NCBI RefSeq assembly: GCF_000760695.4
Contig: NZ_JHEG04000001.1
Location: 8,035,123 to 8,099,122 of the forward strand
From: Tolypothrix bouteillei VB521301
Lineage (GTDB): Bacteria > Cyanobacteriota > Cyanobacteriia > Cyanobacteriales > Nostocaceae
Length of the DNA: 64,000 bases
Direction: 5' to 3'
A model generated the notes under the pieces. It was not told the DNA's origin. It ran no database searches and was given only the letters and a program-made list of their open reading frames with translations. A program made the position numbers and the translations under genes. Of this stretch, positions 17,967 to 24,685 are shown one piece after another (position 1 is the stretch's first letter; each line of letters starts with the position of its first letter).

Positions 17967-18090
17967 TTGTGCTGCTCGATAAAGTCTACCCAAAGTACCT
18001 ATACGTAAATAAATACCCTCCCATGCTTGTACTGAAGTTGCGGACACGCATTATTTAGGACTTATAGTAAAAGCTTTACGATAATCAATA

Positions 18091-18389
18091 TTTACTAGGG
18101 CTGTTTTTACTGGTGGGTATGTCATTACTAGTGGTCCATCGCATAAATTCTCATAGGTAAGTGAACGCACTACCCACTCTCGTTTTATCTCGTTCCCAGG
18201 CTGAGCCTGGGAACGAGGTGGCAGCCTATCAAAATTAATGGGACAAACCAGTAGGTATGTTTTTACTAGGGCTGTTTTTGATGATTGTTCTTACTGGTGG
18301 GTATGTCATTTACTAGGGCTGTTTTGACCAAAGTACGTACCAGATTGTTCTCTACATTTACTAGGGCTATTTTTCATACCCACCAGTAA
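18091..18389. repeat. Cluster of TTTACTAGGGCTGTTTTT repeats with paired inverted motifs
   Basis: Within 300 bases the 18-mer TTTACTAGGGCTGTTTTT occurs four times (18091, 18262, 18309 truncated, 18357 with one change). A second motif, TTACTGGTGGGTATGTCAT, follows two copies (18107-18125, 18291-18309), and its core appears inverted after the last (CATACCCACCAGTAA, 18375-18389). No coding sequence is present. The arrangement can fold into long alternative stems and looks like nested insertions of one small mobile repeat. Confidence 0.7.
18189..18217. repeat. Perfect 13-bp palindrome, part of a dispersed repeat
   Basis: CTCGTTCCCAGGC-TGA-GCCTGGGAACGAG is a perfect hairpin. The right arm plus the next 24 bases (18205-18240) recur at 55393-55428 with 31 of 36 bases identical, so it belongs to a dispersed element. 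Confidence 0.65.
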
Positions 18390-18445: not shown

Positions 18446-18485
18446 GTTCGCAGTTGGGCTTTAGTGCTAAAGCCCAACTGCGAAC
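18446..18485. terminator. Perfect 19-bp hairpin downstream of convergent genes
   Basis: GTTCGCAGTTGGGCTTTAG and its exact complement CTAAAGCCCAACTGCGAAC are separated by two bases. It lies between the PrmA-like gene (plus) and the CHAT fusion gene (minus), so it could end transcripts from both. It looks like a repetitive extragenic palindrome rather than a gene-specific structure. Confidence 0.5.
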
Positions 18486-18630: not shown

Positions 18631-20562
18631 TTAATATTTTGATTTCATGTATTCAACTCCCGGAGCCACAACTTTTTGCCAAGCTTTCCCAATTAATTCC
18701 TGATAATCATCATTTTCCTGACACAAAGGATCGAATTCAAGGACTGTATCAATCAAAGCATTGACAAAGTCTGTATATAAATTTTTGGGAATATCATGCT
18801 TGGTATGACTGTGCATTTCAGCAATACGGCTGAGAACATTGGGTTCTTCTTGCTCGTTTTCCTGGGGAAATCGCTCATTGTGTTCGTAATATGCAAATAA
18901 TAAAACAATAGCTTCTTTTAGCTGCTGATGTTGGTGATTCCAACGCCCTTCAGCCTCAAGAGAAAGAAACTTTTGTGCAGCATGAGGACAAAATTGTGTC
19001 AAAAATTTATGATAGAAAGTTTTGAAAAACTTTTTATCAAAATCTGCATCACTCGTACACCTTGCATAACTTTCCTTTGCTGTGTTCAAATAAAAACTAA
19101 CACCACGAATAATTTTTAACGCATCCTCAAGTGTTTCATAACGATTTGCTGGATCGCGTGATGTCATCTTAAGAATGGCTTTTTCAAAGATAGTAGGACA
19201 TCCATGGCATTTGTCTGTTATTGAGATGAGAGACTTAAATGCTTTATCACCATTTTTCTTTAAGTCTTTAATATCCTTTATGGTAGGTGGTAATTGACCT
19301 GTGAGAAGTTCATATGCTAAAAGACCGAGACTGTACTGATCGGATTGATCGGGTGTAGAAGAATCGATTGATACTTTACTAAAATTTTCAGGAAGTAAGT
19401 ACGCTAAATCTTCTAAAATGGCTTGCTTTCCATAAGTTTTTGACTTCCGCTCGAGTTCTTCTAAAATTCGATTGGGAGAAAAATCTTTACACAAGTCTAA
19501 GGGCGAAATAAAAGGCTCATATTCATTCTCCTTACAAAGAAGCATAATTGTTGATGGCTTGATATTTCCATAAATATTTTTTAGTTCTCTGGCTCGAACA
19601 AGTGTATCTCCAATCTTTAATATGAGTTTGCTGACTACAGTAAATGGTAGTTTACCTTTATCTGTTAACGTTTGTCGGATGGTTTCCCCATCAATAAATT
19701 GCAGAATACAGTAATGAGGTTGTGTTTCTAAATACGCATCATAAATAGTAATAAAGTTTGCTTCATTGGAAATATTAACTGCCTTTCTAAGGCTTGCATC
19801 AAAATCTACTTGTAAATCTTCACGTGCTAAGACTTTGATAGCTACATTCCGTTCCAACGTGCGATCGTATGCTTTATATACTGGAGCAACACTACTTTGA
19901 ATAATTTTTCCTAATATTTGATATCTGGGCTCTACAAGTTTGTTAAATTCAATTAATGATAAATCCTCTGAGGTATCTTTGTTGATTGCTGAAGAATTAA
20001 TTTTCAATACTGGAGCTTCGTTTTCTCCTAAATGAATGAGTCGATTGCGGGCTAAATTAAAGGCAAATTTTATACTTTCTCCACTTCCGATAGCATCATA
20101 AAATGTGACAGCAAAATCAATAGCCGCTCTATCTCCAACAGACTCATGCATACCAATCACATAATTAACGTATTGGCTAATAGCATTAGCTTGTACTTCT
20201 GAGTAACAAGCATTTAATACCACACACTCTACACCCTTAGTAGCAAATTCCTTAAACAAACCAGCAAGCTCATCTGCTGGTAAAAAAGCTGGTTGTCCCG
20301 TGTCATTTTCTAACACGATCCCATCTTCCCCAGATCCATGTCCGCTAAAGTGAACGATTTGGGGTTGATAATCTAGAATCGCTCGATAAAAATCATCAAT
20401 CCTTACAGCCAACTCCATTTCTAGTTTAAACTGCTCGCGCTTCTTTGCACGCCTCAATGCCTCGCCAATTTCCCTGACTTCTTCACTGCCTTCTAACCGA
20501 GTTGTACCTTTTGGATTGGCAGATAGTATTAAAATTGTTTTAATAGATACGTTGTTGCTCAT
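18631..20562 (-). CDS. CHAT protease-pseudokinase-globin fusion protein
   Basis: A 643-residue protein with three modules. Residues 1-190 are a caspase-like CHAT domain with the dyad His75 (HFSGHG) and Cys119 (VLNACYS). Residues 205-490 have a Ser/Thr-kinase fold (VAIKVL lysine 243; SDQYSLGLLAYELLTG; DPANRYETLEDAL), but the Gly loop is lost, HRDLKPxN is YGNIKPST (Asn333 for the catalytic Asp) and DFG is absent, so it is a pseudokinase. The C-terminal 140 residues look globin-like: FYHKFLTQF, a QQLKEAIVLLFAYYE helix, a probable heme-proximal His in IAEMHSHTKH, and AWQKVVAPGVEYMK. The order suggests a sensed ligand or gas relayed through the pseudokinase to a protease, as in bacterial cell-death systems. 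That mechanism is inference. No substrate gene is adjacent; flanking spacers are repeat-rich. Confidence 0.85.
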   Translation of the reverse strand: MSNNVSIKTILILSANPKGTTRLEGSEEVREIGEALRRAKKREQFKLEMELAVRIDDFYRAILDYQPQIVHFSGHGSGEDGIVLENDTGQPAFLPADELAGLFKEFATKGVECVVLNACYSEVQANAISQYVNYVIGMHESVGDRAAIDFAVTFYDAIGSGESIKFAFNLARNRLIHLGENEAPVLKINSSAINKDTSEDLSLIEFNKLVEPRYQILGKIIQSSVAPVYKAYDRTLERNVAIKVLAREDLQVDFDASLRKAVNISNEANFITIYDAYLETQPHYCILQFIDGETIRQTLTDKGKLPFTVVSKLILKIGDTLVRARELKNIYGNIKPSTIMLLCKENEYEPFISPLDLCKDFSPNRILEELERKSKTYGKQAILEDLAYLLPENFSKVSIDSSTPDQSDQYSLGLLAYELLTGQLPPTIKDIKDLKKNGDKAFKSLISITDKCHGCPTIFEKAILKMTSRDPANRYETLEDALKIIRGVSFYLNTAKESYARCTSDADFDKKFFKTFYHKFLTQFCPHAAQKFLSLEAEGRWNHQHQQLKEAIVLLFAYYEHNERFPQENEQEEPNVLSRIAEMHSHTKHDIPKNLYTDFVNALIDTVLEFDPLCQENDDYQELIGKAWQKVVAPGVEYMKSKY

Positions 20563-21047: not shown

Positions 21048-21803
21048 TCAGAAATTCGCTCTGGTTCTGTGCAACCAATTCCAGGAATTGCTTGGTAAAT
21101 TCAAAAGTTCATCACGAGTGTAAACGACCGTGTAACCCTTACTTTTTGCCAGTTCTATCAAATTCAATCCATCAGTACGTTGGGCTTGTTCTGCAGTTGT
21201 GTGTCTTCCTACAGTTCCTTTGGGAAGATACCATGCTTCGCCACCTCCCAAAATCACATCTGCACCTGACTCAACAATTTGTTTGGTAATTTCATCAAAA
21301 TTACGGCGGCTTGCTGATTTGGCTAAAAATGCACCTGTTCCAGGTTCGGGAATAATACCGGAGTTAACGATCGCAGTTGCTTTTCCTGCGGCTATAGCTT
21401 CCTGCATAATAGTCTTAGGTTTACCGGAAGCTGCTACCACTGGTTTACCCGCTTCATCTAAGCCATAGGAGTCTGCATTCACCTTCACTCCTGTTGCATG
21501 AGTAACTGCACCTGCATTGGAAGTTGCTGTCAGTTGGTTTTTCATGTGTCCGAGGTATACAGCGAGATTGGACATCTTATCCCAATTCAGTCTCCCATCA
21601 GGACCGTAGTGAAGCATTCGGGCTGCACCCCAATGAGATGCACTCGTACCATCAGGATGAATGAATATGACATTACCCTGACGCGAACCAGTCTTGGCTG
21701 TAGGTATTGCAGCACAACCCACCATAACTATCAGAGTCACGAGCGCTAAATCAACAACAAATTTTCTGTTAATTTTTTGTACCGCTTTGAAATTTAATTG
21801 CAT
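21048..21803 (-). pseudogene. Alkaline phosphatase, truncated after about 240 residues
   Basis: The N-terminal half of a PhoA-superfamily alkaline phosphatase is intact. It has a lipoprotein leader (LALVTLIVMVGCA), the metal-binding Asp in IFIHPDGTSASHWGA, the nucleophile region ATSNAGAVTHATG, and SGIIPEPGTGAFLAKSA. After LLNLPSN the sequence departs into a short unrelated tail and stops. The C-terminal half with the remaining zinc-binding Asp and His residues is missing, so the product is almost certainly inactive. The adjacent 20880-21047 region does not contain the lost part. A deletion or insertion event probably removed it. Confidence 0.8.
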
Positions 21804-21988
21804 ATACTTTAATTTAAGTCAATAACCTAAAGTTATAGATGCCAATTCCATAATTATGTCCTATTAGCGTGCTTTTACGGCACAAGGTTAGCTGCAAAGT
21901 GAATTTTCAGTATAAATTCTGAAGCCAAATATCCGTAATACTTGCTACCCTGAATGCGAAGCATGGTGTGTTTTTGACAATAGACTGA

Positions 21989-24685
21989 ATGTTAGAACTT
22001 TCAAAAATTTTTTTTGCTTATACTGAATTTATTCCACACGGTCATTGCTATCTCTGGAAGCCAGAGTTAGTGGAACTGCATCTTTTATCGGACTGCTTAA
22101 TTGCACTTGCTTATTATTCAATTCCCATCACCCTAGTGTATTTTGTCCGCAAGCGTCAGGACTTACCGTTCAATCAGGTATTTCTGCTATTTGGAACATT
22201 TATTATTGCTTGTGGCACAAGCCATATTATGGAGGTGTGGACGCTCTGGTATCCCACCTACTGGTTAAGTGGTTGTGTCAAGGCTATTACTGCTATTGCA
22301 TCACTTTATACAGCTATTGAAATTATCCCGATGGTGCCCAAGGCACTTGCTCTTCCGAGCCCCGCACAATTAGAAGCAGCAAACCGCGAACTAGAGCGTG
22401 AAATTGGCGAACGCAAACAAATAGAAGAGGCGTTAAAAGAAAGTCAAACAAAATATAAAACCCTGTTTGAAATCTTTCCTATTGGTATCTCTATTACCGA
22501 TGAAGTAGGACAAGTGGTAGAAGTCAATCCAGCTTCTGAGAAAATTTTAGGCATATCTAGCTCCGAACATACAGCACGTAAATATGATGCGTCTGAGTGG
22601 GTTTGCATTCGTCTCAATAAAACCCCCATGCCACCCCAAGAGTTTGCCAGTGTGAGAGCGCTTACAGAAAAGCGAGTTGTGGAAAATGTAGAGATGGGAA
22701 TCGTCAAACCAAATGGTGAGACTACTTGGATTAGCGTTACGGCTTCACCGATTCCCCTTCCCGGCTATGGTGTGGCAATTGCTTATGTTGATATTACTAA
22801 GCGTCAGCTTGCAAAAGAAGCCCTGCGGCAGAGCGAATCAACACTGCGTAGCTTTTTCAACAGTAGCTCAATGATGATGGGTATTGTTGAACTGTATGAT
22901 AATGATATCTTGCATCTTTCTGATAATTTAGAATCAGCCAAGTTCTTCGGTAGAACTCCCGAAGAAATGCAAAATCGGTTCAGCAGTGACATGGGCTCGT
23001 CCCAAGCAACCCGACAACTGTGGATGAACCATTACCAAAAGGCAAACGATCTTCAAGCACCCGTGCGATTTGAATATATTCAAGAGACTCCTACGGGTTC
23101 TAAATGGTTCTCTGTTAGCGTTTGCCCGATCGCAATTGGTCCTAACGGTCGTCCGAGATTTTCTTATATAGTCGAGGATATTAGCGATCGCAAACAAAGC
23201 GAAGCCGTCCTACAGCAAGCACTCTCCGAAGCTGAAACGGCATCAATTGCCAAAAGTCGGTTCTTATCCAACATGAGCCACGAACTGAGAACACCACTCA
23301 ACGCTATTCTCGGTTTTAGCCAGTTGATGGCTCGCAGTCATTCGCTTTGCCCCAAGGACAAAGAACAACTACAAATTATCAATCGCAGTGGCGAACATTT
23401 GCTAAATCTCATTAACGACATTTTGTCAATGTCTAAAATTGAAGCAGGTCAAATCACTCTTAATGAAAATAGCTTTGACTTGTTTGAGCTACTGAACGAC
23501 ATTCAAAAGATGCTCCAGTTTAAAGCTAGTGTCAAAAATTTAAATTTTATCTTTGAACGATCGGCAGACATTCCCCAATACGTGCGAACTGATGAAAGTA
23601 AGTTGCGCCAAGTCTTAATTAACTTATTAGAAAACGCCATTAAATTTACTAACAAAGGCGGTGTGATTTTGCGAGTGAGTTCGGAAACAGGAGACTTGCA
23701 ATTGAAAACTAAGAGTTTCTTATCTCCAATCGCTAATCCCCAATACCAAATCAAGTTTGCAGTCGAAGATACTGGACCTGGAATGGAACAACAGGAAATA
23801 GCTACTTTGTTTGAGCCCTTTTTCCAAACAGAAACAGGTCGTCAATCAATGCAAGGAACGGGTTTGGGTTTAGCTATTAGCCGAGAATATGTGCGTTTGA
23901 TGGGAGGAAACATCACCGTTAACAGCCAAGTAGGTAAGGGAACAAGTTTTATATTTGATGTAGTAGTTAGCAAAACGACTATCGACGATAATAAAATTTC
24001 ATCTACCAGCAAGCGAGTTATTGGGCTTCAACCCAACCAACCAACCTATCGCATTTTAGTTGTGGATGATATAGATGAGAGCCGCCTGCTACTCGTTAAA
24101 TTGCTAGAACCGTTGGGATTTCAAGTGTATCAAGCAGTTAACGGTTCTGACGCACTGGCTTTGTGGTCAACGTGGGAACCGCATCTTATTTGGATGGATA
24201 TGCGAATGCCAGTGATGAATGGTTATGAGGTTACCAGACAAATTAAAGCAACAAACAAAGGTCCGTCTACCGTTATTATTGCCTTAACTGCTAGTGCATT
24301 TGAAGAAGAGCGATCGCAAATTTTGTCTGCGGGCTGTGATGACTTCGTGCGTAAACCTTTTCAAGAAGCAGTATTGTTTGACATCATGGCTCGGCACTTG
24401 GGAGTGCGTTATATCTATGAAGAAGAGAATCATCTCGTCTCACCACAACCTGCAGCCACATTTAAGCAACTGACTGCTGAAGATCTAAGTGTTATGCCTC
24501 CTGAATGGATAGAACAGCTACACCATGCAGTGTTGTGCGCTAATGACGAGATAATATTAGACTTAATCGAGCAAATTCCAGAGAAGGAATCTTCTTTAGC
24601 TCAAGTTCTCACGGATTTGGTCAATAATTTTCGTCTAGATATGCTCTTGGAACTATCTCAGCAGTTTGTTAATACGCAATTATGA
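21989..24685 (+). CDS. Ethylene-receptor-type hybrid histidine kinase
   Basis: This 898-residue membrane sensor starts with three transmembrane helices of ETR1 type (SDCLIALAYYSIPITLVYFV; LLFGTFIIACGTSHIMEVW; GCVKAITAIASLYTAIEIIP). Cys75 and His79 in ACGTSH occupy the positions of ETR1 Cys65/His69, which bind copper and ethylene. Two PAS domains follow (about 145-280 and 280-405), then HisKA with His431 (MSHELRTPLNAILGFSQLM), HATPase (LLENAIKF, EDTGPGM, GTGLGLAIS) and a receiver domain with phospho-acceptor Asp737 (WMDMRMPVMNGYE). The last 80 residues resemble no clear domain. Ethylene sensing is inference from residue conservation. No output gene is adjacent. Confidence 0.93.
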   Translation: MLELSKIFFAYTEFIPHGHCYLWKPELVELHLLSDCLIALAYYSIPITLVYFVRKRQDLPFNQVFLLFGTFIIACGTSHIMEVWTLWYPTYWLSGCVKAITAIASLYTAIEIIPMVPKALALPSPAQLEAANRELEREIGERKQIEEALKESQTKYKTLFEIFPIGISITDEVGQVVEVNPASEKILGISSSEHTARKYDASEWVCIRLNKTPMPPQEFASVRALTEKRVVENVEMGIVKPNGETTWISVTASPIPLPGYGVAIAYVDITKRQLAKEALRQSESTLRSFFNSSSMMMGIVELYDNDILHLSDNLESAKFFGRTPEEMQNRFSSDMGSSQATRQLWMNHYQKANDLQAPVRFEYIQETPTGSKWFSVSVCPIAIGPNGRPRFSYIVEDISDRKQSEAVLQQALSEAETASIAKSRFLSNMSHELRTPLNAILGFSQLMARSHSLCPKDKEQLQIINRSGEHLLNLINDILSMSKIEAGQITLNENSFDLFELLNDIQKMLQFKASVKNLNFIFERSADIPQYVRTDESKLRQVLINLLENAIKFTNKGGVILRVSSETGDLQLKTKSFLSPIANPQYQIKFAVEDTGPGMEQQEIATLFEPFFQTETGRQSMQGTGLGLAISREYVRLMGGNITVNSQVGKGTSFIFDVVVSKTTIDDNKISSTSKRVIGLQPNQPTYRILVVDDIDESRLLLVKLLEPLGFQVYQAVNGSDALALWSTWEPHLIWMDMRMPVMNGYEVTRQIKATNKGPSTVIIALTASAFEEERSQILSAGCDDFVRKPFQEAVLFDIMARHLGVRYIYEEENHLVSPQPAATFKQLTAEDLSVMPPEWIEQLHHAVLCANDEIILDLIEQIPEKESSLAQVLTDLVNNFRLDMLLELSQQFVNTQL

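Follow-up and report, generated by a model that had tools for sequence, protein, structure and literature searches.

The window analysed here, a 64,000-nucleotide stretch of the Tolypothrix bouteillei VB521301 genome (C1:8035123-8099122; the genome comprises 9.95 Mb in two contigs), carries a gene whose product joins a CHAT domain with an intact His-Cys dyad, a kinase that has lost its catalytic motifs and a globin with an intact heme pocket in a single chain. In relatives, the same pseudokinase-globin unit is attached to other N-terminal effectors, and CHAT is in turn combined with other regulators. The occurrence of a dead-kinase-globin unit on varied cell-death parts suggests, from sequence comparison, an undescribed heme- or gas-controlled switch of bacterial cell death or defence. 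The features of the protein are listed below, with counts referring to the readable rows of the family alignments.

18631..20562, reverse strand: CHAT-pseudokinase-globin gene, a single intact ATG-to-stop open reading frame (ORF) of 643 amino acids
19993..20562, reverse strand: CHAT caspase-like domain, residues 1-190 (PF12770, E 1e-12; SAVED-CHAT 8tl0, E 1e-16)
20338..20340, reverse strand: codon of His75, CHAT dyad (His in 9/9 CHAT-bearing rows)
20206..20208, reverse strand: codon of Cys119, CHAT dyad (Cys in 9/9 CHAT-bearing rows)
19108..19941, reverse strand: pseudokinase, about residues 208-485 (PF00069, E 1.5e-13; top Foldseek rows are PknB/PknA-type kinases)
19834..19836, reverse strand: Lys243 of the VAIK motif, retained (33/33)
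19549..19572, reverse strand: degenerate catalytic loop YGNIKPST, residues 331-338, with Asn333 replacing the HRD Asp (Asn in 30/34 rows, Asp in 1/34)
19498..19515, reverse strand: degenerate DFG segment PFISPL, residues 350-355 (DFG Asp in 0/34)
18634..19101, reverse strand: C-terminal globin domain, residues 488-643
19012..19014, reverse strand: Tyr517, aligned with globin B10 Tyr (33/33)
18967..18969, reverse strand: Phe532, aligned with globin CD1 Phe (33/33 on the globin-only alignment)
18931..18933, reverse strand: Gln544, aligned with distal E7 (Gln 29, His 3, Leu 1 of 33)
18811..18813, reverse strand: His584, aligned with the proximal heme ligand F8 (33/33)
19057..19059 and 18721..18723, reverse strand: Cys502 and Cys614, nearly invariant globin cysteines, a candidate redox pair also present in PA3967

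The CHAT domain

By fold and by its His-Cys dyad the window protein belongs to the CHAT/caspase-like peptidase family, and proteolysis is predicted. The SAVED-CHAT protein 8tl0 was the sole solved protein returned by the sequence search, sharing the His-Gly and Asn-Ala-Cys context of the dyad, and it also appears among the kinases in a Foldseek search with the full-length model (predicted local distance difference test score, pLDDT, 84.8). His75 and Cys119, the dyad residues picked out by an earlier sequence-only reading of the window, align with those of 8tl0. The Pfam scan of the protein gave no match to a SAVED domain or to a STAND NTPase domain.

The globin domain and its heme pocket

Pfam gives no match in the last 150 residues of the protein, and the C-terminal domain is a globin both by profile and by fold. 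Because the family profiles match PA3967 of Pseudomonas aeruginosa and flavohemoglobin by sequence, the possibility that the call reflects a mere helix pattern was rejected. The domain has the 3/3 helical fold of the flavohemoglobin-like globins together with the F8 His and CD1 Phe of the globin superfamily, and the chain ends with it: there is no C-terminal flavin adenine dinucleotide/nicotinamide adenine dinucleotide (FAD/NAD) reductase domain in the window protein, which is therefore not a flavohemoglobin. Thus the globin-like C-terminal domain of the sequence-only reading has the globin fold, and the His of the IAEMHSH motif, considered there a probable proximal ligand, is the invariant F8 residue His584.

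In 27 of the 33 globins, all less than 80% identical to one another (median pairwise identity 38%), 10 of 142 alignment columns show no variation, and B10 Tyr, CD1 Phe and F8 His belong to these; E7 ranks 25th, and this position holds Gln or His in 32/33 globins. The CD1 Phe count of 33/33 is that of the globin-only alignment; the first whole-protein alignment gave 14/17 and a later one missed the Phe of P0134. In a comparison of eight globins (five family members, a single-domain relative and a pair of Pfam-recognised globin domains from this genome), the only invariant columns were B10 Tyr, CD1 Phe, F8 His and an H-helix Trp. A Tyr occupies F8 in a pseudokinase-globin relative outside the 33-row set, which is split over two ORFs in Symploca sp. 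SIO3C6 (L033, 5068-6540) and is probably a decaying copy, while a contig-edge fragment (L032) has His there. Judged by these residues, the globin very probably takes up heme.

The same genome contains a second unusual globin architecture (L022:898-2700, contig C2, at about 195 kb), a 600-amino acid protein in which two globin domains and a hydrophobic stretch are combined with a C-terminal region of pentapeptide repeats, located about 3 kb from another globin match.

The pseudokinase domain

The central domain has a kinase fold by profile and by Foldseek, and has lost the residues of catalysis. Neither aspartate expected of an active Hanks-type Ser/Thr kinase is present, the HRD Asp being replaced by Asn333 and the DFG Asp being absent. 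Motifs were counted over 35 fusion rows, several of them near-copies, leaving out P0132 (287 amino acids, 100% identical to the window protein), the fragment L032, the split gene L033 and loci that repeat counted records. The sole row retaining the HRD Asp is P0130, so that this residue is absent in 33/34 and the DFG Asp in 34/34 readable rows, in agreement with the pseudokinase call of the sequence-only reading; both aspartates are present in the same alignment columns of the active-kinase controls P0143 and P0159. The alpha-C Glu was found in 1/33 rows, in a column that is not dependable, as control P0143 failed there, and that was left unused. Because the VAIK Lys is universal, the HRD Asp is mostly Asn, the DFG Asp is never found and the controls are intact, the family is considered to preserve a specific dead kinase form, xGNIKPSN...PFISP, as judged from its aligned motifs. 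The loss is family-wide, and a local accident of the window gene was rejected; nor do the relatives have the standard active kinase that would have spoken against the initial interpretation.

Among the best 120 of 321 matches of a profile search, the score drops from 272 bits (P0142, a fusion) to 167 bits at 61% coverage, and the two rows examined below this gap are active kinases. The set of fusion proteins, drawn from the best 120 of 1282 and the best 120 of 321 matches, is incomplete, and the latter listing omits seven known fusion rows (P0008, P0010, P0011, P0069, P0122, P0125 and P0126).

Exchange of effectors and regulators

The nearest named full-length relative, among the best 120 of 1282 protein matches, is from Scytonema sp. 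NUACC21 (82% identical). The complete CHAT-pseudokinase-globin order recurs in the relatives P0002-P0005, P0007, P0124 and P0142, and the T. bouteillei genome has another gene of this order, whose product is 42% identical to the window protein over residues 8-640. Across the family, the N-terminal parts carried by the pseudokinase-globin unit are CHAT, TIR, SEFIR and EAD1. On a tree of the unit with 33 rows (excluding P0139 and P0141, which are too short), the N-terminal labels need 10 changes, with a possible minimum of 4 and a mean of 14.5 on shuffling, and as few as 10 changes were seen in 0/200 shuffles. TIR, with 4 changes, shows fair clustering. For CHAT 7 changes are needed, of which strongly supported branches force at least 4, and its clustering was equalled or bettered in 116/500 shuffles. 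Three labels are doubtful: P0122, called EAD by eye though Pfam gives no N-terminal domain, and two labelled as having none, P0137 (a truncated record) and L041 (a short N-terminus). Without these, 7 changes are needed on 30 rows, falling to 6 with TIR and SEFIR merged and to 5 when the long branches P0124 and P0142 are also removed.

CHAT, for its part, is found with many partners. Among twelve CHAT relatives scanned in the same genome (L003-L014, with weaker CHAT matches lying outside this set and several frames cut at locus ends), ten carry another domain: nSTAND1, TIR with AAA_35, WD40, pentapeptides, SAVED, EAL, NB-ARC (two), CVNH and EAD1. In the domain scan L009 and L013 show CHAT alone, and the CHAT of L005 is known from the genome search, not being among the best 25 of 50 families in its domain scan. 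One of the ten, L011 (contig C2, 224341-224913), fuses CHAT to a CVNH (cyanovirin-N type) domain. The CHAT of L007, the CHAT-SAVED protein of this genome, is 56% identical to that of the window protein.

The related genome G544 offers a parallel. It encodes an EAD1-pseudokinase-globin protein among 24 EAD1 matches, and ten of the others, scanned for domains, include EAD1-CHAT, EAD1-CHAT with a STAND-like NTPase, two EAD1-CHAT-GUN4 proteins (L059 and L061), EAD1-NACHT and EAD1-VMAP. In conflict-type proteins GUN4 is read as a tetrapyrrole sensor of cell state, according to the accessible part of PMC7159879. Because effectors and regulators are exchanged, and because EAD1-CHAT-GUN4 proteins contain a domain read in this way, the pseudokinase-globin unit stands in the place of a sensor, and the joining of CHAT to a tetrapyrrole-binding domain has a precedent. 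The best 25 of 29 PADLOC matches were at the level of the kinase or of CHAT, none naming a system for the CHAT-pseudokinase-globin architecture.

A proposed heme switch and its alternatives

From the domain order and conserved residues we infer heme binding, a ligand, a direction of control, proteolysis and a role in defence or cell death. In the proposed mechanism, the C-terminal 3/3 globin (PA3967/flavohemoglobin-like) would bind heme, and the state of this heme (bound to O2, nitric oxide (NO) or CO, oxidised or reduced, present or absent), possibly together with the conserved Cys pair, would alter the packing of the globin on the pseudokinase. The pseudokinase, without phosphorylation, would act as a relay that holds CHAT off or unassembled, and upon the signal the CHAT Cys-His protease would be released to cleave host proteins, with dormancy, death or regulatory cleavage as the outcome. 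The pseudokinase-globin switch of the relatives would likewise drive TIR or SEFIR, or recruit effectors through EAD1. O2, NO, redox state and heme supply are indistinguishable by sequence as the signal.

The globin is rather likely to be the input of the switch, and we consider it narrowly probable that the whole chain, from globin through pseudokinase to release of the CHAT protease, operates within a single polypeptide. The broader proposal is more tentative, and somewhat more doubtful than probable: that the pseudokinase-globin unit serves bacterial immunity or cell death as an undescribed heme switch independent of the effector, in which a gas, redox or heme signal activates whichever effector is attached (CHAT, TIR, SEFIR or one recruited by EAD1), in cyanobacteria and at least one record named Chitinophagaceae. 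The sequence-only reading had envisaged heme or gas state, or a bound nucleotide, being relayed through the pseudokinase to a death or regulatory protease. The three domains, the pseudokinase and the proximal His underlying that view were borne out, and the relay itself is indirectly supported by conservation of the heme pocket, effector exchange and regulator exchange.

The main alternative, which we regard as unlikely, is that sensing is really done by the pseudokinase, which would recognise a nucleotide, a phage protein or a host kinase, with the globin mainly a structural or dimerisation part and any heme constitutive. Retention of the VAIK Lys in every readable row and of the glycine loop in several relatives agrees with this, and the nearly fixed NIKPSN loop, with its Asn for Asp, looks like selection at the site and not decay. 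However, the distal pocket (B10 Tyr and E7 Gln/His) is conserved as in gas-binding globins, a feature unneeded by a purely structural globin, and the DFG Asp, whose loss usually abolishes Mg-ATP binding, is missing throughout the family.

Less probable again is a redox switch, in which a Cys502-Cys614 disulfide in the globin would alter heme coordination, by analogy with the disulfides of neuroglobin and cytoglobin, so that the signal would be oxidative stress and not a gas. The near-invariance of both cysteines (Cys502 in 26/27 and Cys614 in 25/26 readable non-redundant rows) and their presence in the aligned PA3967 accord with such a role, but at that site the second Cys is missing from the single-domain relative L027. 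A flavohemoglobin-type pocket would also suit a protective enzyme part (one that acts as an NO dioxygenase or scavenges O2), in which case the fusion with CHAT or TIR would do no more than keep the parts together. This is very improbable, as the window protein has no FAD/NAD reductase domain, no reductase was seen to recur near the gene among the ORFs listed for the inspected loci (some of which were domain-scanned), and the dead kinase retained between both ends would be left unexplained.

If the heme switch proposed above is correct, bacteria use a dedicated dead kinase to connect caspase-like and TIR effectors with a gas or redox sensor of the hemoglobin type. Cell-death proteins, for most of which the trigger is unknown, would thereby gain an input that can be tested, and a bacterial pseudokinase would have a clear role. 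The protease-globin protein androglobin and the heme-regulated kinases would have a prokaryotic parallel.

Distribution and genomic context

Occurrence of the family is rare, patchy and mostly solitary, which fits a mobile or often-lost conflict gene without proving it. The C-terminal profile found matches in 2/386 genomes sampled from the phylum, the T. bouteillei genome itself and G004, where the match is a single-domain globin of 136 amino acids. Among genomes of the taxonomic family, 7/217 gave matches, six of them with pseudokinase-globin, including G531 (a contig-edge fragment) and G530 (without a recognised N-terminal effector); the seventh, G466 (L039), is weak (E 8.8e-4) and contains stops. 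A pattern-based scan of named genome contigs yielded five loci from 144 candidate stretches, and one fusion record, P0125, is named Chitinophagaceae. When phages were searched with the kinase-globin part, none of 21 records reached 80% coverage, and the eight listed cover 62-66%, which corresponds to the kinase part. Likewise, none of the 183 plasmid records matched by the whole protein reached 80% coverage.

In G530 (L041:8094-11663), a reverse transcriptase lies about 1.4 kb from the pseudokinase-globin gene, with two FGE-type (FGE-sulfatase) proteins farther off. By analogy these neighbours look like a diversity-generating retroelement, a reverse transcriptase and FGE-type set that the accessible part of PMC7159879 ties to conflict systems. 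Directly upstream of the pseudokinase-globin ORF of G530, on the same strand, is a 140-amino acid ORF with no Pfam match (L041:6780-7202), perhaps an adaptor replacing the fused N-terminal part.

Among the six neighbours of the window gene scanned for domains are PrmA, a cNMP/HATPase histidine kinase, a cytochrome P450, a short alkaline phosphatase ORF and an ethylene-receptor-like hybrid kinase, and neither clustered regularly interspaced short palindromic repeats (CRISPR) components nor a cyclase were seen beside it. No neighbour gene recurs across the relatives' loci inspected. Given these scanned neighbours, and the different ones of the relatives, membership of an operon or defence island was rejected. 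A cNMP/HATPase kinase also stands near the relative at L030; this pairing was counted as coincidence, because the two kinases are just 39% identical and because the adjacent FAD protein of L030 has its 85% match in the T. bouteillei genome at a site elsewhere than the window gene. A 65-amino acid ORF has a stop that shares bases with the start codon (ATGA); it is probably no gene, because its best other match across 21 genomes, including this one, has E 0.008.

Three further observations concern the flanking DNA. Directly downstream of the CHAT gene, at 18446-18485, is an inverted repeat with perfectly matching 19-bp arms 2 nt apart, perhaps a terminator, present in a single copy genome-wide when up to 3 mismatches are allowed. 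Between prmA and the CHAT gene, at 18085-18374, a 24-nt repeat (common TTTACTAGGGCT) occurs in four spaced copies. At 21048-24685, the alkaline phosphatase ORF (251 amino acids, covering just positions 3-211 of the 423-position profile) is divergent from the ethylene-receptor-like (ETR1_N) hybrid histidine kinase.

Comparison with known systems

The sequence-only reading knew of no described system with this exact domain order, and no description of the CHAT-pseudokinase-globin architecture was found in the titles and abstract beginnings listed by searches of the open-licence literature, which is no proof of its absence in print. The accessible text of two conflict-system surveys, PMC8195603 and PMC7159879, has no word starting with 'globin', the letters occurring within a single word of either survey (for PMC8195603, in the title of a cited work on the caspase-hemoglobinase fold), and they are absent from that of PMC10907252.

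The nearest globins by sequence and fold are PA3967 (1tu9) and the flavohemoglobins, which have identical pocket residues; 1tu9 is described in the accessible part of PMC1457004 as very similar to the globin domains of flavohemoglobins. These globins are free or fused to a reductase, whereas that of the window protein follows an effector and a pseudokinase at the end of the chain. Globin-coupled sensors, which belong to the sensor family of globins (in part after PMC3287990), resemble the window protein in joining a globin and an output domain in one chain. Their output domains are variable and C-terminal, behind the globin (PMC1457004, accessible part). By contrast, the window globin is C-terminal and flavohemoglobin-like, so that the order of globin then output is not followed.

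The GUN4 fold is unrelated to globin. GUN4 conflict proteins of cyanobacteria join a tetrapyrrole-binding domain to caspases, kinases or TIR (PMC7159879, accessible part) and, unlike the window protein, are without pseudokinase-globin. Androglobin likewise combines a cysteine-protease-like (calpain) domain and a globin in one chain, but is eukaryotic, with a permuted globin inside a calpain-like protein, and has a separate origin, the globin insertion being dated to the choanoflagellate-animal ancestor in the accessible part of PMC13331133.

Among CHAT proteins, SAVED-CHAT 8tl0, which acts in type III CRISPR signalling (PMC11417357, accessible part), shares its CHAT family with the window protein, and the His and Cys of the two align. 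The CHAT domain of 8tl0 lies toward the C-terminus (residues 288-455 of 496) and its regulator is SAVED, whereas CHAT is N-terminal in the window protein and the regulator is pseudokinase-globin. TPR-CHAT (Craspase), HetF and the nSTAND1/NB-ARC CHAT proteins also place a CHAT output under a separate regulatory part, a position held there by TPR, a CRISPR complex or a STAND NTPase and in the window protein by pseudokinase-globin.
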